From Nitrosomonadales bacterium (GTDB lineage: Bacteria > Pseudomonadota > Gammaproteobacteria > Burkholderiales > Gallionellaceae): a stretch of 64,000 nucleotides of DNA. Position numbers and translations under genes: made by a program. The stretch spans positions 1 to 64,000 of the forward strand of contig JANYJE010000070.1 of the NCBI GenBank assembly GCA_025408405.1. The letters run 5' to 3'. Under the pieces are notes generated by a model, which saw nothing but the letters and a program-made list of their open reading frames with translations, had not been told where the DNA came from and made no database searches. Shown here in pieces: positions 12,302-33,500 of this stretch. Positions within the stretch are counted from its first letter, which is position 1. Every line of letters starts with the position of its first letter.

Positions 12302-12336
12302 ATCCCCTCGACTGTAATTCGGTAGAGGGGATTTTT
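12302..12336 (+). terminator. Rho-independent terminator downstream of the mto cluster
   Basis: atcccctc ... gaggggat ttttt. Confidence 0.8.
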
Positions 12337-14152
12337 ACATCTGGCTGGCTGGCGGCGCCACCTTCACGACTTCTTCCAGCGTCGTCATTCCAGCTGCAAC
12401 TTTCATGGCGCCGGAAATGCGCAATGGCCGCATGCCTTCGCGTGCTGCCAGTTCGCGGATGGGGGCAGTGTCAGTGGCGGGGGTGACCAGCTTGCGTAAC
12501 TCGGGAGTCATCAGCAGTATTTCGTAAATGCCGATGCGCCCCATATAGCCTGTCATGCGGCATTCCAGGCAGCCCACCGGTTGATGAATTTGCTCCGGGC
12601 GTTTGGCTTTCCACGGCGACACCAGGCTGTCCCACTGTTCCTTCTCATCTTCCTGCAGAGGCACCGGTTTTTTGCAGCGCGGGCACAGCGTGCGCACCAG
12701 TCGCTGCCCCATTACCCCTAGCAGGGTTGCATTGAGCATGTAAGACGGAACGCCCAGGTCGAGCAGGCGCGTGATAGCCGCAGGAGCATCATTAGTGTGC
12801 AGCGTGGACAGCACCAGGTGCCCGGTAAGTGCTGCCTGGATCGCCATGTCGGCAGTTTCCAGGTCGCGTATCTCGCCTATCATGATGATGTCCGGATCCT
12901 GCCGCATCAGTGCGCGCACCCCGTCGGCAAAGCCTAATTCGATGGCATGCTGCACCTGCATTTGGTTGAACGCGGGTTCGACCATTTCGATCGGATCTTC
13001 GATGGTGCAGACATTCACCTCGGATGTGGCCAGGTGCTTGAGCGTCGAATACAGCGTTGTGGTTTTGCCCGAGCCGGTTGGCCCGGTAACAAGGATGATG
13101 CCATTGGGCTGTGAAGTCATCTGCTGCCAGCGTGCCAGATCTTCGTCGGAAAAACCGAGTTCGGAAAAGTCGCGCACCAGCACCTCGGGGTCGAAGACAC
13201 GCATCACCAGTTTCTCGCCAAATGCGGTTGGTAACGTCGACAGGCGTAATTCGATTTCCTGCCCCTCGGCCGTGCGCGTCTTGATGCGGCCATCCTGGGG
13301 GCGGCGCTTCTCCACCAAGTCCATGCGGCCCAGCACCTTGATGCGGCTGGTCATGGCGGCCATTACCGACATGGGAACCTGATATACCTGGTGCAGCACG
13401 CCGTCGATGCGGAAGCGCACGATTCCCAGTTCACGCCTGGGCTCGATGTGGATATCCGAGGCGCGTTGGTCAAAGGCGTATTGCCACAGCCAGTCCACAA
13501 TATGCACGATGTTCTGATCGTTGGCATCGAACTGGCGATTGCTCTTGCCCATTTCTACTAACTGCTCAAACGAGGCCTGCCCGGAGATGCCAGCACGATC
13601 AACCTTGGTTGCACTCTTCACCGAGCGTGCAAGGTTGTAGAACTCGACCAGAAAGCGGCTGATGTCGGGCGGGGTGGCCATCACCCGGCGGATTTCCTTG
13701 CGCAGTATGGGCTGCAGCACACTCTCCCATTCGCGCAGGAAGGGCTCGGCGGTGGCGATCACGACTTCGCGCTGGGTTACCTGCACCGGCAAAATGCCGA
13801 AGCGAGCAGCATAGTCGCTGGACATGATGTCGGTGACGGCGGAGAAATCAATTTTCAGCGGGTCGATGTGCAAATACTCTAGGCCAACCTGCCCCGCCAG
13901 CCACTCAGTCAGTGCTTCGAGCGTGAGCAGCTTGTGTGGGGATCGTTGGGACTTCCAGTTCTGCTCACTGACGGTTACCAGCGGGTGCGTGTCATGTCGC
14001 AGGCTGCGCTTGGCTGCGATCAGGGCATCGGCTTCTGCTCTGCCTACCATACTGTCGTTCACCAGCATGTCGAGCAGCTCGAGCAGCGTCAGCTTGTGCT
14101 CGCGTCTTTCCTCTTGCTTCTGGGCCACTTGTTTCTTGATTTCCTGTTTCAT
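12335..14152 (-). CDS. GspE/PilB-type secretion ATPase
   Basis: GPTGSGKTTTLYSTLKHL, IEDPIE, MRQDPDIIMIGEIRDLETADMAIQAALTGHLVLSTLHTNDA, CXXC pairs. Confidence 0.92.
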   Translation of the reverse strand: MKQEIKKQVAQKQEERREHKLTLLELLDMLVNDSMVGRAEADALIAAKRSLRHDTHPLVTVSEQNWKSQRSPHKLLTLEALTEWLAGQVGLEYLHIDPLKIDFSAVTDIMSSDYAARFGILPVQVTQREVVIATAEPFLREWESVLQPILRKEIRRVMATPPDISRFLVEFYNLARSVKSATKVDRAGISGQASFEQLVEMGKSNRQFDANDQNIVHIVDWLWQYAFDQRASDIHIEPRRELGIVRFRIDGVLHQVYQVPMSVMAAMTSRIKVLGRMDLVEKRRPQDGRIKTRTAEGQEIELRLSTLPTAFGEKLVMRVFDPEVLVRDFSELGFSDEDLARWQQMTSQPNGIILVTGPTGSGKTTTLYSTLKHLATSEVNVCTIEDPIEMVEPAFNQMQVQHAIELGFADGVRALMRQDPDIIMIGEIRDLETADMAIQAALTGHLVLSTLHTNDAPAAITRLLDLGVPSYMLNATLLGVMGQRLVRTLCPRCKKPVPLQEDEKEQWDSLVSPWKAKRPEQIHQPVGCLECRMTGYMGRIGIYEILLMTPELRKLVTPATDTAPIRELAAREGMRPLRISGAMKVAAGMTTLEEVVKVAPPASQM

Positions 14153-22311: not shown

Positions 22312-22983
22312 TTAGCTGATGTCGCCGGGTTCGGAGAGTGTGTTAACGCAGTAATACAACATCAGCTTGTCATTCTGGCTCGTGCTTTCAAACTCTACAC
22401 CAGTTCGTATGCCGCTGAATGATTCGCTGATATGTTTGATAATGGCTGCAAGGGTCAAATCCACATTCTTCTTTTCAAACTCAACCTGGAGTGAAAGATT
22501 GATCCTGTCCCCAATATTGCCAAGTGCTTCGCTGGAAACCAGGCCTGCACCGCCAATACTCAAATCCTTGACGATGATGGCGGTGGGATTACTCATGCCC
22601 TTTGCGGTAACGGTTGCCGTCAACTCGAGATCTGCGCGCAGATGGCTGCGTACAAATTTGACGGCCACAGTATCCGGGCAGGAAAAGCGGGCGTTAAATT
22701 GCGCGCTGTCTAATTGCAGCACGCTGGAAGTGAAAGAAAAATCGTATTTCCCGGTAAACCCCTTAATGAGGTAGCTGTCACCGGCGCGTATCTCTATCAT
22801 TTTTGTGTTGTTCACAAGAAGAGAGGTCAGGATGCTTTTTCCGGCAAAGACCGCAACAAATTGCGCCTTGTGACCCAGCATCCTGCCTTTGCTATCCAGT
22901 ATTTTCAACTCTGTGCCGGGGCGTAGCCTTAACTCCTGAATGCTGACTTCAACATGGCCAGCGCTGTTTGTTTCATGATTCAT
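22312..22983 (-). CDS. PilZ-domain (YcgR-like) c-di-GMP-binding protein
   Basis: YcgR-like N-domain followed by RADLELTATVTAKG...IVKDLSIGGAGLVSS. Confidence 0.75.
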   Translation of the reverse strand: MNHETNSAGHVEVSIQELRLRPGTELKILDSKGRMLGHKAQFVAVFAGKSILTSLLVNNTKMIEIRAGDSYLIKGFTGKYDFSFTSSVLQLDSAQFNARFSCPDTVAVKFVRSHLRADLELTATVTAKGMSNPTAIIVKDLSIGGAGLVSSEALGNIGDRINLSLQVEFEKKNVDLTLAAIIKHISESFSGIRTGVEFESTSQNDKLMLYYCVNTLSEPGDIS

Positions 22984-23210
22984 TGTTCGCCACCCTCGAT
23001 ATTGCTTGTAACGATTGATGAGCGACCAAGTCGCTATGTGGCGTGCATTTTACATGGGCATGCATCAATCGCTACAATTTGTTAATGTGCCGTATACATG
23101 CAGTCTGAAATAAATTTGACAAACATTTCTTTTCATACTAAATTAGTCAACATTGTGTCGCGATGCAGTTTTTATGTTTATGTATGTTCGCGGCAGTTTA
23201 ATGGAACGCA

Positions 23211-23300
23211 ATCTGCACATGGCAAACCTGTCGAAAGTCAGGGACGCAAAGTTACCGGTCTAAGGAGTTTTTTTGCTCTATGACAGCGGGATCGCCAGAT
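23211..23300 (+). ncRNA. Cyclic-di-GMP-I (GEMM-I) riboswitch
   Basis: atctgcacatGGCAAACCtgtcGAAAgtcaGGGACGCAAAGttACCGGtCTAAGgag-ttttttt-gctcTATGacAGCGGGatcGCCagat: GAAA tetraloop, CUAAG/UAUG receptor, P1 AUCU/AGAU. Confidence 0.87.
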
Positions 23301-23469
23301 AGATTACACAGGTTGATCCTGTATCTCTGTTTATCCCCCTCAGGCCGATAACTTCGCAGGTTTTGCGGATTGACTGGCATCCGCAATTGGCTTCGCTTAA
23401 TATATCTATCAACCATGCGGGTATGGTTGGTTAGTTAGTGGAAGCATAACGACGGAATTGGGGGGTAAT

Positions 23470-24123
23470 GTGTCACCTGAACTTTCTAACAAAACCGCTG
23501 ATGCGGGAACTGCCACTTTCGTAGCGGAAAACCATTTGCTCGGCATTGTGCAGCGCATTGTGGCATCGCGTGACGATACACGTATCGTGCTGCCGGGTAA
23601 GGGCGAGATAGCCATACTTCCCGGACGCAATGAATTCCACGCCAATGTGCAGGATATGCCCGAATTCTGCCGTGCTCCCGCAGCTCATTTTGGGGTGACG
23701 GTGTTCGATGGGGCCGTCCACACCTATACATCGCGCAATGGCAGGAGCATCAAAGACCTGCTCTGGCAATCTGCCTTCCATGCTTCACAAGGCCTTCTGC
23801 TTGAGGGCTGTTCGAAATACGATGTCATCCAGTTCAGCCACTGGCCTAACCTGACCCGCCTGCCGGTCACGCCAAATGCCGCACGGATTTGCGCATTGCT
23901 CACGCGCCACCCCACCACCATCATGCTCGTGCATCGCGTACTCGGCATCGACAAGGAAGAGGTGTGGCAGATTTGCAGTGCCGCTTACAGCGCCGGCATT
24001 GCCCGCATGATCAGCCACAACCCGGCGGTGCCAGGTGTTGATGCATTTGCAGCCCAACAACCCGAACCGGTTAAAGAGCGTGGCCTGTTCCGCTCGATGT
24101 TCGCAAAAATCTCGGGGCTCTGA
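23470..24123 (+). CDS. Uncharacterised protein, first gene of riboswitch-controlled GTPase operon (GTG start)
   Basis: Open frame with GGGGGT RBS-like sequence before GTG 23470; 3 nt gap to the GTPase gene. Confidence 0.65.
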   Translation: MSPELSNKTADAGTATFVAENHLLGIVQRIVASRDDTRIVLPGKGEIAILPGRNEFHANVQDMPEFCRAPAAHFGVTVFDGAVHTYTSRNGRSIKDLLWQSAFHASQGLLLEGCSKYDVIQFSHWPNLTRLPVTPNAARICALLTRHPTTIMLVHRVLGIDKEEVWQICSAAYSAGIARMISHNPAVPGVDAFAAQQPEPVKERGLFRSMFAKISGL

Positions 24124-24126
24124 CAA

Positions 24127-24681
24127 ATGGAAAATAAAATCATTTTTGCAGGCCCGGTTGGCGCGGGCAAGACCACCGCCATTAGTTCTGTCAGCGACAT
24201 CATGGTCGTCGGCACCGAGGCGCGCGCATCGGATGAAGTCGCACAACGCAAGAACACCACCACCGTGGCGATGGATTACGGCATCCTCAACCTGGATGGC
24301 GGCGAAAAAGTGCACCTCTATGGCACCCCGGGGCAGGAGCGCTTCAGCTTCATGTGGGAAATATTGAGTGTGGGAGCGATGGGGTTCGTCATTCTCATCG
24401 ACAGTGCCAGACCCGACCCCATGGCAGATCTTGATCTCTATCTGAATGCATTCAGCAAGTCCATTGCCAAGTGCGGTAATGCGGTGGTGATTGGTGTCAC
24501 GCGCACAGAATTAAATCCGCAGGTTGATCTGCTGGACCGCTTTAACGCACGCCTCACCAGCATGAAGCTGAGTATCCCGGTTTTTGAGGTGGACGGGCGC
24601 CAGCGCGAAGATGTCAAACAGATGTTGCTGGCCCTGCTCACGTTTCTTGACCCCGCCACCAATAGGGGGCGCGCGGCATGA
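24127..24681 (+). CDS. Small Ras-like GTPase (MglA/COG2229-like)
   Basis: G1 FAGPVGAGKTTAI; G3 region LYGTPGQERFSFMWEIL; GAMGFVILIDSARP. Confidence 0.85.
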   Translation: MENKIIFAGPVGAGKTTAISSVSDIMVVGTEARASDEVAQRKNTTTVAMDYGILNLDGGEKVHLYGTPGQERFSFMWEILSVGAMGFVILIDSARPDPMADLDLYLNAFSKSIAKCGNAVVIGVTRTELNPQVDLLDRFNARLTSMKLSIPVFEVDGRQREDVKQMLLALLTFLDPATNRGRAA

Positions 24682-26081
24682 GCCTGGTTGCAGCCGCACT
24701 AGAGTTGACGCAGTCTCAGGAGGAGCAAATGGAACTGGAGAGGCGTCGCCGCAATCGCATACTTCCGCTTGATGCTCCAGGCGTTCCAGATGCGCTGCTT
24801 GAATTGCATGGTTTTGGGGTGGCTTTTGGCCAGCAGGTTATCCTGTGTGAAATCTCGCTGGCCATACCGGAGACTGGTGCCGTGATATTGCTCGGGCCGT
24901 CAGGCACCGGGAAGTCCACGTTGTTGCGCACGCTGGCCGGGCTCAGTGTCGCCAGCCCTTCGTTTCGGACCTGGGGGAAGGCGTTTTATCGCGGCTCCTT
25001 ACTGGATGGTAAAGAACGCCCAGAACTGGTGGCGCAAAGCGCGAGGCTGATGATGTCCTCCGTGCTCGAGAATGTCGTCGTCAACTTGCCGGAGCGCAAC
25101 CTGCTTACCCTCTCCATGCAGCGCGACCTTGCGCAGCGCATGCTGGAGCGGGCCGGATTGCAAGAGTTGTGCAACCAACTCAGTGAACCCGTGGTCAATC
25201 TGCCACTGGCGCTGCAGCGCCATCTCTCGATCCTGCGTCAGGTTGCCGCCAGTCCGCGCCTGTTGTGCATCGATGAACCAACCACGGGATTGAACGCCGT
25301 CGAAAGTGCCCGCCTGCTGGCTTACATGCGCGAAGAAGCCTCGCGCCGTGCCCTGCTGGTTGTCCTGCATAACCAACAGCACGCGCGCTTGCTGGGAGGA
25401 ACCGCAGTGCTGATTGCCGGCGGATACGTCCAGGAAGAACAGCCCATTCCGCAGATATTTGATGCTCCGATTTCGGCAGCGGCACGCGAGTTTGCGCGCA
25501 ACGGCACTTGCAGCGTAGCCGCTCCCGGGACACCGCCTGAATATCTGGACGAATCGCTGCCTCCGCCCAAAGCACTGCCAAAGGCAGCATTGAACTATTC
25601 GGGGAGTGCGGCAGGCCCTCGGGGTTTCCTCTGGCTTAAGCAGGGCAAGCTCGCGGGAACGCCATTGCCAGGTGTTTATTTCGACATGGAATACGACTTG
25701 AAAGCCTTGCAGCGCGTCGGGGTGACCACCCTGGTGACGCTCACAGAAACGGCACTGGATGAATCGCGGCTCGTGCCATTCGGCATGAAAAGTTTTTGGG
25801 AGCCCATTCCGGACATGAAGGCTCCTACTATTGAACAGGGCATACGCTTATGCCAGAAAATTGACCAGTTACTTACCCAACGCGAAGCCGTCGCAGTTCA
25901 CTGCAAGGCAGGGATGGGGCGTACCGGCACCGTGCTCGCCGCCCACCTGGTGTGGGAGGGGCAGAGTGCGCTCGATGCGCTGGAAACAGTGCGCAGCATT
26001 GAACCGCGCTGGGTGCAATCACCGCTACAAATTGCATTTCTCGAAGAATTTGAAATTGCGGTAGCAAAGAATCGTGCCTAG
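24678..26081 (+). CDS. Fusion: ABC-type ATPase domain + C-terminal dual-specificity/tyrosine phosphatase domain
   Basis: Walker A LLGPSGTGKSTLL, Walker B RLLCIDEPTTGLN; C-terminal VHCKAGMGRTGTVLAAH (HCX5R). ATGA overlap with the GTPase gene. Confidence 0.87.
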   Translation: MSLVAAALELTQSQEEQMELERRRRNRILPLDAPGVPDALLELHGFGVAFGQQVILCEISLAIPETGAVILLGPSGTGKSTLLRTLAGLSVASPSFRTWGKAFYRGSLLDGKERPELVAQSARLMMSSVLENVVVNLPERNLLTLSMQRDLAQRMLERAGLQELCNQLSEPVVNLPLALQRHLSILRQVAASPRLLCIDEPTTGLNAVESARLLAYMREEASRRALLVVLHNQQHARLLGGTAVLIAGGYVQEEQPIPQIFDAPISAAAREFARNGTCSVAAPGTPPEYLDESLPPPKALPKAALNYSGSAAGPRGFLWLKQGKLAGTPLPGVYFDMEYDLKALQRVGVTTLVTLTETALDESRLVPFGMKSFWEPIPDMKAPTIEQGIRLCQKIDQLLTQREAVAVHCKAGMGRTGTVLAAHLVWEGQSALDALETVRSIEPRWVQSPLQIAFLEEFEIAVAKNRA

Positions 26082-26175
26082 CCTGTAGTGGGCAAGGCGA
26101 TGACGTTGTAGGAAACCCCGGCCGAGCTGTTGCAGCAAGGCTTTTTATAAAATTTATTAATGAAAGATAATGATC

Positions 26176-26580
26176 ATGGCTGACTTAAATAACGCACTAC
26201 AAAATGCAATTACCTCCATCCCGGAATGCCTGGCTGCCGGATACATAGACCTTTCCAGCGGCATGTTGCTGGGCATCCGCTCAGTCGATTCACAACCGGC
26301 TGAAGTCGTCGAGTTGCTGGCCGCCGCCACGGCAGACCTGTACCAGGGTACCAACGTCAAAATGATCGAGAGCATATTCAAGAAGGCGCGCGGACTGAAG
26401 GATGATGGCCATCACTACTTCCAGGAAATCATCATCAACAGCGACAACCTGATCCACATATTTATCCGTGGCAAAAAAGAAGATCAGGTTGCCTGTTTTG
26501 TTTGCCGCAAATCGGCCAACCTCGGCATGGTGCTTACCAAATCGCGCAGTGCCATGCCCGCACTGGAAGCCGCAGTTTAA
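26176..26580 (+). CDS. Small protein, paralog 1, possibly roadblock/LC7-like fold
   Basis: IPECLAAGYIDLSSGMLLGIRSVDSQPAEVVELLAAATADLYQGTNVKMIESIFKKARG...NLGMVLTKSRSAMPALEAAV; near-duplicate of next ORF. Confidence 0.75.
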   Translation: MADLNNALQNAITSIPECLAAGYIDLSSGMLLGIRSVDSQPAEVVELLAAATADLYQGTNVKMIESIFKKARGLKDDGHHYFQEIIINSDNLIHIFIRGKKEDQVACFVCRKSANLGMVLTKSRSAMPALEAAV

Positions 26581-26665
26581 TCGGTAGTGATGTAGCAAGG
26601 AAAGATGAAGCCTGGCTGTTGCAGCGAGGCTTCGTTGATTTTTATTAAACCAGAAAGGAAATGAC

Positions 26666-27070
26666 ATGGCTGATTTGGATAATGCGTTACAAAGCGCAAT
26701 TGCTAACATCCCGGAATGCCTGGCTGCCGGATATATAGACCTTTCCAGTGGCATGCTGCTGGGGATCAAGTCGGTGGATTCTCATCCGACTGAAGTGATC
26801 GAGTTGCTGGCTGCCGCCACGTCGGATCTGTACCAGGGCACCAATGTCAGAATGATTGAGAGCATATTCAAGAAGGCGCGCGGGCTGAAGGATGATGGCC
26901 ACCACTACTTCCAGGAAATCATCATCAACAGCGACAACCTGATTCACGTGTTCATTCGTGGTAAAAACGAAGATCAGGTTGCCTGTTTTGTTTGCCGCAA
27001 AACGGCCAACCTGGGTATGGCGCTCACCAAGGCGCGCAGCTCCATGCCTGCTCTGGAGGCCTCGGTTTAA
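26666..27070 (+). CDS. Small protein, paralog 2 (tandem duplicate of 26176-26580)
   Basis: MADLDNALQSAIANIPECLAAGYIDLSSGMLLGIKSVDSHPTEVIELLAAATSDLYQGTNVRMIESIFKKARGLKDDGHHYFQEIIINSDNLIHVFIRGKNEDQVACFVCRKTANLG. Confidence 0.78.
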   Translation: MADLDNALQSAIANIPECLAAGYIDLSSGMLLGIKSVDSHPTEVIELLAAATSDLYQGTNVRMIESIFKKARGLKDDGHHYFQEIIINSDNLIHVFIRGKNEDQVACFVCRKTANLGMALTKARSSMPALEASV

Positions 27071-27159
27071 ACGGGGCTGCAGTTCGGCCATGCAGCGTGG
27101 CCGAGTCTTGAAAATGTGTATAATTCATTCACCTGATAAATTTGTGGGTATATGGAATC

Positions 27160-27564
27160 ATGAGAGAAGCAGAAAAAACACCGGATGAAGTGCGCGCCTC
27201 GGCCCTGCGCTCCGTCCTGCGCGAATTGAACAATTCTTCTGCCGATATCGAAGCTTCAGCCTGCATATCGAGTGATGGCTACTCCATGGCTGCGGTTCTC
27301 GGTCAAGATGTCGATGCGGACCGTTTTGGCGCCATGTGTGCATCGTTGCTGGCTTTGGCTCATCGGGCTTCCCAGGAAATTCAGCGTGGAAATTTGAAGC
27401 TGGTACTGGTCGAGGGGGAGCAGGGGGTCATGTTGTTGGTACAGGCTGGCCCGGATGCCATCCTGGCTGTGGCTGCCAAGCCAGGCAAAAACATGGGCAT
27501 GATCTTCCTGGATGCCAGAAAAGTTGCGCAGAAACTGCTCACAGTTCTGGAGAGCCACAAGTAG
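27160..27564 (+). CDS. Roadblock/LC7 domain protein (MglB-like)
   Basis: LRELNNSSADIEASACISSDGYSMAAVLGQDVDADRFGAMCASLLALAHRASQEIQRGNLKLVLVEGEQGVMLLVQAGPDAILAVAAKPGKNMGMIFLDAR. Confidence 0.85.
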   Translation: MREAEKTPDEVRASALRSVLRELNNSSADIEASACISSDGYSMAAVLGQDVDADRFGAMCASLLALAHRASQEIQRGNLKLVLVEGEQGVMLLVQAGPDAILAVAAKPGKNMGMIFLDARKVAQKLLTVLESHK

Positions 27565-27597
27565 TTTTCTTATGAACTGACAGCACAGTTCATCTCT

Positions 27598-29247
27598 ATG
27601 GCGAACCTGAAATATCAAGACCGTGAGATCAATTCACGCGAGGGCGAAAACGTCCTCGATGCCTTGTTGCGCCAAGGCATCAGTATCCCGTTTTCCTGCC
27701 GCAGCGGTGCCTGCCATATCTGCCTGCAACGCTGCATTCAGGGAACGGTTCCCCCTGTGGCGCAACGCGGTCTGCGCCCAGCGTTGCGTGAGCAAGGTTA
27801 TTTCATGGCCTGCCAATGCGTGCCGCAGGCGGACATGGAGATTGCGCCTCCCACCGAGCTCTACGCGACGATGCCGGTGCACAGCAAGGAAATGCTTTCC
27901 GCGCATGTGTGCAAACTCCTGATAGAGCCTCCCTCGAATTTCGTTTATCACGCCGGGCAATTCATCAACCTGCGCCGCCCTGACGGCCTGGTACGCAGTT
28001 ACTCTCTCTCCAGCCTGGCGGGAGAGGACTACTTTCTCGAGATACACGTCCTGCGCAAGGAAGGTGGCATCATGAGCAACTGGATACTGGATGAACTGAA
28101 GGCCGGCGACGAAGTGGATATTCTGGGGGCCGGCGGCGACTGTTACTACCGGGATGACGCCCACGGCCATCCGCTGTTGCTGGTAGGCACCGGCACCGGA
28201 CTGAGTCCGCTCGTCGGCATCGCGCGCGATGCCTTGCACCAGCAGCATCGAGGTGAAATCCATCTCTATCATGGTGGCCGCGCTAGTGATCGTTTTTACC
28301 TGCGCGAAAAGTTGCGCCAGATGGAGCAGCAATATCCAAATTTTCACTATCACGAATGCATTTCGAGGAGTCCCATGCCGGCGGATGGCGCTTATGCCGG
28401 GCGTGTGCAGGAGGTCGCCTGCGCGCAACACCAGGATCTGCGCGGCTGGCAGGTGTATTTTGCCGGCTTGGCTGAAATGGTGGATAGCGGGGAACTGCTG
28501 GCGGCAGAGCGTGGTGCTGCGCCGGGGGCAATTCACACGGATGCCTTTGCCCTGCGCGAGTTGCGCAAGGCGCCGCGCAATGGCGACAAGATTGCATCAG
28601 CTTCACAGGCGCACAACGTTGCGGAGTCAGGCATGGATGACGATAGGCCAAAATATCCGCCGCCCGATCCCGAGCTGTGGGCGGCACTGCGCGACGGCGA
28701 GGCGCTCATGCAAGTGCTGAAAGATTTCTATGCGCGGGTCTACCAGGATGCGAGGCTCTCCCACTTTTTCGATGGGGTGACCCAGCAGCGCCTGATTGAG
28801 AAGCAATACCTGTTCACGCGCCAGATACTGACAGGGGAAAAAATCTACTTCGGCGACCGCCCGCGCAATACCCATCACTGGATGGTGATCTCGGATGAAC
28901 TGTTCGATTACCGCGCAAACATCATGGGGAGCTGTTTGCGTGAGCATGGGCTGCCCGAATCCATGGTGCTACGCTTCCTTGAAGTTGAAGAGTACTTTCG
29001 GCACGACATCGTGAAAGTGGCTCCGTTTGCGCGCATCAAAGGCGGCGTGGAAGTTCCCTTCGAGGGGTTCAATGAAATCATTATGGATGTCGGTACGCTG
29101 TGTGACAGCTGCGGGCGCGAAGTCTCGGCAGGAGAAAAAGTCATCTATCATGTACGCATCGGAAAAATCTATTGTTCCGACTGCAGCTCCCGGCCTAACC
29201 ACGAAATGCCTGTTGCAGCTGCTGAGGCAGGGCTGCCGCAGAGATGA
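27598..29247 (+). CDS. Fusion: plant-type 2Fe-2S ferredoxin + FNR-like reductase + truncated-globin + Zn-ribbon-like C-terminus
   Basis: CRSGACHICLQRC...C; LRRPDGLVRSYSLSS and LLLVGTGTGLSPLVGIARDAL; FYARVYQDARLSHFF...FTRQILTGEKIYFGDRPRNTHHWMVISDELFDYR; CDSC...CSDC. Confidence 0.85.
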   Translation: MANLKYQDREINSREGENVLDALLRQGISIPFSCRSGACHICLQRCIQGTVPPVAQRGLRPALREQGYFMACQCVPQADMEIAPPTELYATMPVHSKEMLSAHVCKLLIEPPSNFVYHAGQFINLRRPDGLVRSYSLSSLAGEDYFLEIHVLRKEGGIMSNWILDELKAGDEVDILGAGGDCYYRDDAHGHPLLLVGTGTGLSPLVGIARDALHQQHRGEIHLYHGGRASDRFYLREKLRQMEQQYPNFHYHECISRSPMPADGAYAGRVQEVACAQHQDLRGWQVYFAGLAEMVDSGELLAAERGAAPGAIHTDAFALRELRKAPRNGDKIASASQAHNVAESGMDDDRPKYPPPDPELWAALRDGEALMQVLKDFYARVYQDARLSHFFDGVTQQRLIEKQYLFTRQILTGEKIYFGDRPRNTHHWMVISDELFDYRANIMGSCLREHGLPESMVLRFLEVEEYFRHDIVKVAPFARIKGGVEVPFEGFNEIIMDVGTLCDSCGREVSAGEKVIYHVRIGKIYCSDCSSRPNHEMPVAAAEAGLPQR

Positions 29248-30529: not shown

Positions 30530-33500
30530 TTGGTAAAAAATGGTTCGGGCGTGACTCCCCTTCTTGAAGCCGCCCAGATAAGCACACTGTTTTCTGGTGC
30601 AAGGTTTGTCTTCGCCATCAATGCTGTCAACTCCATTATCGTTGCTTTTGTTCTGTGGGGTGTCGTTTCTGCCACTATCCTTGTGTTATGGATACTGGCG
30701 GTGCTGGGTATCACTGCCACCAGGTTTCGTCTGTTGCTCGATTATGAACAGGACGAGTTGCAGGCTGAACGCCTGGCTTACTGGAAACGGGTGGCCGTAT
30801 GGGGCGCGGCATTATCCGGATTGGCCTGGGGTTTTGCTGCAATACTCCTGTTTCCGCACGGTTCGCCGCTACACCAGATTTTCCTGCTGACCATCATGTT
30901 GGGCATGATGGCTGGCTCGGCCACCTCGTGGCATGCCTATTTTCCCGCCTTTCAAGCCTATTTTCTGCCTGTAGCAATATTTACCCTGATCCGTTTTGTA
31001 CTGGAAGTTCTTTCCAGGGAGGTCGCGCAGGAGATATTCACCGCCTTGGCTGCAATGTTTCTGATTTTCACCGTTGGCTTGTATTTCTTTGCGCGAAAAT
31101 CGAACCGGGTGCTGGAGCAATTGCTGATTGCTCAATATGCAAAAGAGGCGGCAGAGGATCGCTATCGCGCCTTGTTCCAGGGAGCCCGGACGCCCATGTT
31201 TCTGATCAACCCGGTCGATGGGCGGATCGTGGATTGCAATGCCGCAGCAGCAGATTATTACGGCTACCAGACCGATCAATTGAAACAGATGAATGTTGCT
31301 CAGATCAACACTTTGTCGCGTGAAGAAATCGCCGAAAAAATGTTACAGGCGAGCAGCAGGAAGGAGTCCTCTTTCAATTTCAGGCACCGCATGGCTAATG
31401 GCGATGTGCGGGATGTCGAGGTGCTGTCCGGCCCGGTTAAATTGGAAGGCCAGCAACTTCTATATTCCATCGTGCATGACATTAGCGAACGCATAGCATC
31501 GGAACGGCAGGTGGCCTTGACCCGGCAGGCGCTCGATGCCGAACACCTGCGCTTCCAGGCGATTCTGGACAATGCCCCATTGGGCATCTGGTACCTGGGG
31601 ATCGACGGCAATCTGCAATTCGTCAACAAGACATTTTGCCGCTCACTCGGAGTTTCCGAAGAGCAATTCCTGGCAGCGCAGCATTATGCGGGGGTTCTGC
31701 CGCAGGAGGTTGCCAATCATTGCATCCAGTCTGACCGGGAGTGTTTCGAGCGTGATATTCCGCATATATCAAAAGAGTGGATGCCGTTTGTAGATGGCAA
31801 ACAACACTTGCTGGAAATCACCAAGGTGAAACTGGTCGGTTCAAACGGTATCACCAACGGACTGATCGGGCTGTCCGTGGATATAACGGAACGCATGCAA
31901 GCAGAAGAAAGCCTGCTTCTCACTGCCAGCGTGTTCAACAACAGCCAGGAAGGCATTCTCATCACCGATGCCGATAACAATATTCTCGATGTAAATACAT
32001 CCTATAGCCGCATCACCGGCTATAGCCGCGAGGAGGTGCTGGGAAAAAATCCGAAGTTGCTGAGTTCAGGCCATCAGGACAAAACGTTTTATGACGCGAT
32101 GTGGCAATCCTTGCAAGAGCATGGTACTTGGCGCGGCGAGATATGGAACCGGCGCAAGTCCGGAGAAATTTATGCCGCACTGCTCTCGATTTCGGTAATA
32201 CGTGACGAAAACGGCAGGGTACAGCGCCACGTTGGCCTGTTCCTGGATATTTCCCACATCAAGGCACATGAGGCCGAGCTGATCCGCGTTGCCCACTACG
32301 ACATGCTGACCGGCGTTCCCAACCGCGCTCTGCTGGCCGATCGCATGAAGCAGGCAAAAGCCCAGACGTTGCGCGAACAGGACATGATGGCGGTATGCTA
32401 TCTCGACCTCGACGGTTTCAAGTCCATCAACGACACGATGGGTCATGAAGCGGGCGACCAGGTATTGATCGAAGTAGCCCAGCGTATTATGGGCACCATA
32501 CGCGGCGGCGATACCGTGGCTCGCCTGGGCGGTGACGAGTTCGTGATTCTGCTTTTGGGGCAGGAGAGAGGTGAGGAGTGCGTGGCGACCCTTGAACGCC
32601 TGCTCAAGGTGATTTCCCTTCCGATCACAGTCAGGGACCAGTCGGTTACTCTGGGCGCCAGCATCGGCGTCAGCATCTATCCTCTGGATGATGAGGATGT
32701 CGACACCCTGCTGCGCCATGCCGACCAGGCTATGTACCTGGCAAAGCAGGCTGGCAAGAATCGTTTTCACATTTACGATCCGTCGCTGGACCAGCGCACC
32801 CGAGTTCACCACACATTCCTGGAAAATATCCGGGGTGCCCTTGAATACAACCAATTCGAACTGCACTACCAGCCCAAGATCAACTTGCGCTCGGGACTGC
32901 TGGTCGGTGCGGAAGCCCTGATACGCTGGCGGCATCCCGAGAAAGGCTTGCTCCCTCCTGCCGAATTCCTGCATGCCATCGAAAACACCGACCTCGACAT
33001 CGAAATTGGAGAGTGGGTGATAAGCACCGCGCTTGCACAGATTCAGAAATGGAGGGCCGCAGGGCTGGACATCGAGGTCAGCATCAATATATCCGCCTAC
33101 CACCTGGAGTCTTCCGGCTTCGTGGAGAAGCTGCGCCAGAAGATGGCGCAGCACACCAGCATACCCATTGGCAGGCTGCAGATCGAAGTGCTGGAAACCG
33201 CAGCGCTTGATGATGTCGTCACCGTGAATGGCATTATCAAGTCATGCCGCGAATTTGGCGTGAAATTTGCGCTGGACGATTTTGGCACCGGTTACTCCTC
33301 CCTGACCTATTTGAGCAAATTGCCGGTCGATACTCTCAAGATAGACCAGTCCTTTGTGCGGGACATGCTGGAGGACAAGGGCGACATGGCTATCGTCCAT
33401 GGCATCATTGCCCTGGCGCGCACTTTTGAGCTGCAGATCGTGGCCGAAGGCATTGAAACCCGGGAGCATTACAATGCCTTGCTGGATATGGGGTGCGAGA

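Follow-up and report, generated by a model that had tools for sequence, protein, structure and literature searches.

The window analysed here, a stretch of 64,000 nucleotides (positions 1 to 64,000 of the forward strand of contig JANYJE010000070.1, assembly GCA_025408405.1) from a Nitrosomonadales bacterium of the family Gallionellaceae, contains a set of seven genes, here called A to G, preceded by an aptamer of the GEMM-I class of cyclic di-GMP (c-di-GMP) riboswitches. Judged by their motifs and gene order, genes A, B and F, together with D, form the core of an already described type of module, the Group 3 MglA system of small GTPase and roadblock proteins; to this are added an ATP-binding cassette (ABC) ATPase fused to a phosphatase (C), which forms a pair with D, and a globin-reductase fusion (G). 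The identity and conservation of the operon are well supported. For its output we infer, with a confidence slightly better than even, that this elaborated Group 3 MglA operon is a phosphatase-coupled switch under c-di-GMP control, with type IV pili or surface attachment as its target.

Gene B encodes a P-loop small GTPase (Pfam), whose G3, G4 and G5 motifs in the window are GTPGQ, TRTE and VDGR, respectively. In the family as a whole, GTPGQ and TTVAMD are invariant, a threonine takes the place of the G2 arginine, G4 is TRxD/E, devoid of the lysine of [NT]KxD, and G5 is DAR or DGR; the published marks of Group 3 MglA proteins are the same (GTPGQ, no G2 Arg, G4 without Lys, D(A/G)R). According to Wuichet and Søgaard-Andersen (PMC4316618), Group 3 systems occur in beta- and gammaproteobacterial hosts and are made up of MglA, one or two MglB proteins and a conserved unknown protein in which a receiver-like part is joined to a winged helix. 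Product F, which matches Robl_LC7 (E-value 9.8e-15) and contains the sequence SSDGY, corresponds to the one or two coupled MglB proteins with an Asp-Gly pair of that description. A tree was calculated from the B proteins linked to C and those of A-B-F-D loci that lack C, leaving out the published Group 1-5 reference sequences. In it, the B proteins from the 21 A-B-C-D loci make up one clade (support 91/89), nested among C-less B proteins of Group 3 type (96/94); the divergent B proteins of loci L053 and L073 lie outside the 21-member clade, on long branches. The first-pass annotation of this DNA had interpreted the genes as a c-di-GMP-gated small-GTPase module linked to dephosphorylation and to oxygen, nitric oxide or redox sensing; a riboswitch-linked MglA/roadblock module with phosphatase and globin is indeed what is found, and the Group 3 precedent had been overlooked.

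The product of gene A has no Pfam or NCBIfam match. In the window, its C-terminal part is winged-helix-like (HWPNLTRLP..) and the receiver-like N-terminus is absent, while longer forms in relatives (L075, L052 and others) appear to have a receiver-like N-terminus (hhalign probability 44%, E-value 2.3e-4). The structural matches of A are weak (best E-value 0.025), also for the winged-helix-like C-terminus, and the top ones are parts of FAM91A1, SEAC and KICSTOR, eukaryotic trafficking or GTPase-regulator complexes. These features bear on an alternative to an output on pili, along the lines proposed for Group 3 systems by Wuichet and Søgaard-Andersen (PMC4316618): the output would be transcription and the winged-helix protein A the effector, its activity being set by B, F, D and C. 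We regard this alternative as less likely: each of the 21 operons begins with A (with a second roadblock gene ahead of it in L052), and the receiver-like part of the long forms and the winged-helix-like model of the family's C-terminal part would suit a regulator, but the leading structural matches are not DNA-bound regulators and the A protein in the window lacks the receiver-like part.

The gene order A-B-C-D recurs at 21 loci belonging to many beta- and gammaproteobacterial families. Several of these loci come from closely related members of a single genus, so the 21 cannot be counted as independent cases. Scanning a genome collection with C gave seven relatives, and tblastn and hidden Markov model scans located A-B-C-D in Methylotenera, two Marinobacter, an Oceanospirillaceae metagenome-assembled genome and Oceanobacter. 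D-profile searches covered the class, the order, two other orders and the phylum, after which the neighbourhoods of the matches were fetched. In two further loci (L053 and L073) the C-D pair is followed by a divergent GTPase gene, and in five (L014, L015, L048, L050 and L072) it occurs without a recognised B. Two of these five, L014 and L015, are from Myxococcota: in L014 the pair lies beside genes for a receiver-domain protein and for an Arf/Ras-like GTPase that is larger than B and different from it, and in L015 beside one for an unknown protein. Weakly scoring relatives of D sit in A-B-F-D operons without C. Within the order the operon is present in 6 of 399 genomes and in none of the 11 other genomes of the window's own family, a patchy distribution that makes horizontal spread or much loss likely. 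The first-pass annotation had named synteny confined to close strains, and products of D, E and F unlike roadblock proteins, as grounds for abandoning its proposal. The gene order extends far beyond close strains, although not to the other genomes of the family, and the three products are roadblock-like (see below for D and E), so neither ground applies.

An origin of the operon in a phage or plasmid was considered and rejected: no phage record matches D, and the plasmids that do match are Ruegeria replicons on which the set of genes is another one. On these plasmids (NZ_CP065362.1 and NZ_CP081104.1), a D-like roadblock protein, about 41% identical, is encoded among four dynamin-family GTPase genes, adjoining genes for a Ser/Thr kinase, an FHA protein and a PP2C phosphatase. 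The cluster appears, from the families of its genes, to be another combination of GTPase, roadblock and phosphorylation functions.

Protein C combines an ABC ATPase domain (ABC_tran, E-value 3.7e-13) with a dual-specificity phosphatase domain (Tc-R-P, 2.3e-21), and the nearest solved structures of the phosphatase part belong to the dual-specificity family. The phosphatase active site is intact in the window (HCKAGMGRTG, an HCX5R motif), and both the Walker A motif and HCX5R are intact in all 28 C proteins. The nearest NCBIfam model of the ABC part is PstB. A role as ABC transporter was rejected, the signature motif being degenerate throughout the family (LPLALQR.. instead of LSGGQ) and no permease being encoded among the operon genes; an anti-phage defence system was also rejected, PADLOC giving only partial, ATPase-type matches for C.

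Proteins D and E have no Pfam match and a PDB sequence search gave nothing useful for them, which is why they were compared by fold. For D, AlphaFold2 gave a model, calculated from a nine-sequence alignment, that has a predicted local distance difference test score of 86 and can be matched to MglB structures with template modelling scores of 0.72-0.74 and E-values around 1e-7. The fold matches comprise Thermus and Myxococcus MglB, a Streptomyces roadblock protein and the Ragulator roadblocks, with E-values from about 1e-6 to 1e-8. D and E are thus predicted to have a roadblock fold like that of MglB, by which the operon encodes three roadblock proteins. The motifs VDS[HQ]P and HYF are present in all D proteins from loci with C (29 of 29) and in none of the 14 D proteins from loci without it; they are also absent from both Ruegeria D-like proteins (0 of 2). 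In the D tree there is a clean split by the presence of C, with support 100/100, the C-linked D proteins forming one group. The correlation between motifs and C runs along one deep split, which fits an interface or a substrate site and proves neither. On the basis of these sequences, the simplest reading is that the C-D pair joined the Group 3 module once in this lineage. A further D-like copy, an orphan, lies elsewhere in the source genome (G000:C72:30862-31251; L046:9848-10282, minus strand), beside a tRNA cluster and with no linked GTPase gene.

The pair could be a new kind of GTPase regulator, in which an ABC-ATPase-driven phosphatase sits on a roadblock dimer and dephosphorylates the roadblock protein or the GTPase, with c-di-GMP setting the dose and the globin reporting nitric oxide (NO) or oxygen. 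This is a speculative proposal to which we assign a rather low likelihood; if true, a Ras-like switch would be reset via ATP-gated dephosphorylation.

The GEMM-I aptamer (RF01051) is the sole Rfam match within the window, with a score of 75.6 bits (gathering score 35, E-value 4.9e-13). Four loci, the window, L009, L052 and L075, have an Rfam match to GEMM-I upstream of A; one of the four is from Methylotenera. When about 413 kb of flanking sequence was scanned, GEMM-I was matched at the last three loci and nowhere else, each time within about 500 nucleotides upstream of A and on the same strand; by a rough estimate, the chance of such placement is 1e-6. No GEMM-I was found in the Rfam scan of eight A-B-F-D operons without C, 17 of the 21 A-B-C-D operons give no hit that reaches the gathering score, and the Marinobacter operon L010 has none upstream even at a relaxed threshold. 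In all four leaders the base that we take to be equivalent to G20 of Vc2 is a G, which presumably makes them of the c-di-GMP rather than the cyclic GMP-AMP type. The effect of A20 or G20 on the ligand selectivity of GEMM-I riboswitches has been described (PMC6456294).

The expression platform was judged from folding alone, in about a dozen leaders. When the window leader is folded as a free single sequence, aptamer bases 23233-23248 mask the start codon of gene A, in a duplex stronger than those of 497 out of 500 shuffled sequences; the duplex of L075 is also strong. Since the aptamer core can pair with the start codon without ligand, a translational ON switch in the window is suggested, as a lead and not a result. 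No consistent intrinsic terminator was found after the aptamers of the leaders compared. The least probable of the readings considered gives the riboswitch no real part: a mobile Group 3 variant whose cytosolic role is unrelated to c-di-GMP (phosphate or metabolic signalling, for example) would by chance have landed behind a GEMM-I leader. It would account for the patchy distribution given above, and the ABC part with PstB as its nearest NCBIfam model could be placed next to the two GEMM-I aptamers of the source genome that precede PstS-like genes; against it, two or more separate branches of the family (the window with L009, and L052 with L075) have GEMM-I upstream of A, and none of the eight C-less relatives scanned has it.

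The source genome contains eight GEMM-I aptamers. Two of them (L092 and L093; with L099 and L100) head operons encoding response regulators, CheW, a methyl-accepting chemotaxis protein and a ChpA-like hybrid kinase, in an order that matches PilG-PilH-PilI-PilJ-ChpA; the Pil-Chp assignment is made from gene order and domains, as no pilus-specific NCBIfam model was reached. The genome also contains pilT/pilU-like ATPases. In Snodgrassella, an allele of an orphan mglB gene of a Group 3 mgl locus changed both colonisation and pilus-dependent motility (PMC11112851). It is from this locus, and from the riboswitch class common to the operon and the Pil-Chp-like operons of the source genome, that an output on type IV pili is deduced; the module, placed behind a c-di-GMP riboswitch in some lineages, probably connects the behaviour of type IV pili with c-di-GMP, a signal for surface attachment.

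A further point in favour of a link to pili is a gene in the window (12335-14152, minus strand) whose product exceeds the cut-off of the NCBIfam model for TfpB, a pilus motor, and contains an MshEN domain; it is located 9 kb from the operon, among non-pilus genes. MshEN is a c-di-GMP-binding type of domain. In Acinetobacter baylyi, TfpB serves as a second extension motor (PMC8213720). As to the other GEMM-I aptamers of the genome, two (L095 and L096) precede similar genes for PstS-like phosphate-binding proteins, an unexpected c-di-GMP target, two (L090 and L091) precede genes for related membrane-anchored ankyrin-repeat proteins, and one precedes a PAS-type multidomain gene running into GGDEF-like sequence.

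Gene G encodes a fusion of Fer2, FAD_binding_6, NAD_binding_1 and Bac_globin domains (Pfam), plus a four-cysteine motif. It adjoins 13 of the 21 A-B-C-D operons, the window included, and lies on the opposite strand in two of them (L076 and L077); two further operons stop at a contig edge and six (L010, L012, L013, L051, L071 and L081) lack it. The globin and four-cysteine parts are constant across G proteins, whereas the reductase is missing in L052, L076 and L077, and its FNR part in L011. The nearest solved globins are HbN-type truncated haemoglobins, and in our reading of the alignment the likely haem-ligand histidine and the distal tyrosine are kept in 13 out of 13 proteins. From these domains G could be a sensor of NO or oxygen or, given the reductase fusion, equally an NO-detoxifying enzyme. 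An operon that is mainly an NO or redox stress module, in which the GTPase-phosphatase part relays the signal of G, a self-sufficient NO dioxygenase or sensor, would agree with the HbN-type globin, its reductase fusion and kept haem-pocket residues, and with the adjacency of G even on the opposite strand; we consider it unlikely, since G, being absent from several operons and having lost its reductase in some relatives, looks accessory and not core.

In the mechanism that we favour, a c-di-GMP-controlled switch acting on pili or attachment, binding of c-di-GMP to the leader would set the amount of the module, raising expression in the window if the leader is an ON switch. B would cycle between its GTP and GDP forms, regulated by F and possibly by D and E. 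D and E would serve as adaptors docking C, whose ATPase state would gate removal of phosphate from a partner, either D itself or a pilus or chemosensory protein, and G would supply an NO, oxygen or redox input or remove NO locally. The most likely output would be control of type IV pilus activity or polarity, and through it the choice between surface attachment and movement. Several observations speak against this mechanism. With GEMM-I in only four of the 21 operons, control by c-di-GMP through a riboswitch is optional, and the start-codon duplex is not strong compared with shuffled sequences in L009 or L052. In L048, L050 and L072, the C-D pair has no A, B or F alongside. None of the loci examined has the operon fused to, or lying within, a pilus gene cluster, and the link to pili is inferred from the common riboswitch class and by analogy.

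The coordinates of the operon and its upstream elements are collected in Table 1. The first-pass annotation had placed a GEMM-I aptamer before seven co-directional genes, the first three tightly coupled; both statements hold, the gap between A and B being 3 nucleotides and B and C overlapping by ATGA. Its assignments of the GTPase, the ABC-ATPase/HCX5R phosphatase, the roadblock protein F and the 2Fe-2S/FNR/globin protein G are borne out by Pfam, and the four-cysteine motif is also there. The later gaps measure 94 (C-D), 85 (D-E), 89 (E-F) and 33 (F-G) nucleotides. In the consensus scan that gave the promoter candidate, six sigma-70-like sites were found where 4.7 are expected by chance.

Table 1. 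Positions of the riboswitch, the operon genes and putative upstream control elements in the window.
Feature	Position	Strand	Description or basis
sigma-70-like promoter candidate, TTGACA-17-TAAATT	23116..23144	+	upstream of aptamer; consensus scan, 10/12
GEMM-I (c-di-GMP-I) riboswitch aptamer, RF01051	23211..23299	+	cmscan 75.6 bits
possible anti-aptamer, start region of gene A	23469..23486	+	complementary to aptamer bases 23233-23248; single-sequence folding
gene A	23470..24123	+	"unknown protein" conserved in Group 3 MglA systems, here in a short form; GTG start
gene B	24127..24681	+	Group 3 MglA-type small GTPase
gene C	24678..26081	+	soluble ABC ATPase fused to dual-specificity phosphatase
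gene D	26176..26580	+	divergent roadblock protein, second-MglB type
gene E	26666..27070	+	close duplicate of D, 87% identical
gene F	27160..27564	+	canonical roadblock/LC7 (MglB-type), Asp-Gly pair
gene G	27598..29247	+	[2Fe-2S] ferredoxin - FAD/NAD reductase - HbN-like truncated globin - 4-Cys Zn-ribbon-like fusion

The spacers before D, E and F (26100-26170, 26590-26660 and 27075-27140) contain hairpin-like sequences that are alike (GTTGCAGC.AGGCTT..), possibly duplicated along with D, or processing or attenuation sites. Divergent from the operon lies a gene for a PilZ-domain, YcgR-like protein of c-di-GMP receptor type (22312-22983, minus strand), and a PAS-GGDEF-EAL gene begins at 30530.

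Group 3 MglA systems have been little studied experimentally despite their many beta- and gammaproteobacterial hosts. The variant described here joins such a system to c-di-GMP, protein dephosphorylation and a haem protein, and names C and D as a protein pair in which the motifs of one track the presence of the other. Its free-living hosts Marinobacter and Oceanobacter could be used to test the joint steering of a polarity-type GTPase and type IV pili.

When the operon is compared with known systems, it is most like the Group 3 MglA system (PMC4316618), with which it shares an unknown protein with a putatively winged-helix-like C-terminus, an MglA with GTPGQ, no G4 lysine and a DAR-type motif, one or two MglB-type proteins, and host groups. 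It differs in having C between MglA and the roadblock proteins, in a second roadblock protein that belongs to a distinct, C-linked group, in the usual presence of a globin protein, in the c-di-GMP riboswitch that can precede it and, in the window, in an A protein without receiver-like part. The first-pass annotation had regarded the whole set as a candidate for an undescribed system: this does not hold for the A-B-F(-D) core, and the C-D pair, the globin and the riboswitch are new with respect to the Group 3 precedent. No paper describing this gene set was found in a literature search with little coverage of subscription journals. The Snodgrassella mgl locus (PMC11112851) likewise has mglA and several mglB genes, one of them an orphan, as our source genome has an orphan D; an ABC-phosphatase, globin or riboswitch is not mentioned in the available part of that report. 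The polarity module of Myxococcus and Thermus also pairs a small GTPase with a roadblock partner of GTPase-activating type, whose fold the D model matches, but its MglA is of Group 1 (TVPGQ, with an arginine finger) and it has no phosphatase or globin. Streptomyces conservons (CvnA-D) are operons with a GTPGQ-type GTPase with DAR-type G5, a roadblock protein and an unknown protein; the window operon has no histidine kinase CvnA and has the ABC-phosphatase instead. The two Pil-Chp-like operons of the source genome are preceded by the same GEMM-I riboswitch class as the window operon, although they encode a chemosensory array and the latter a GTPase module.

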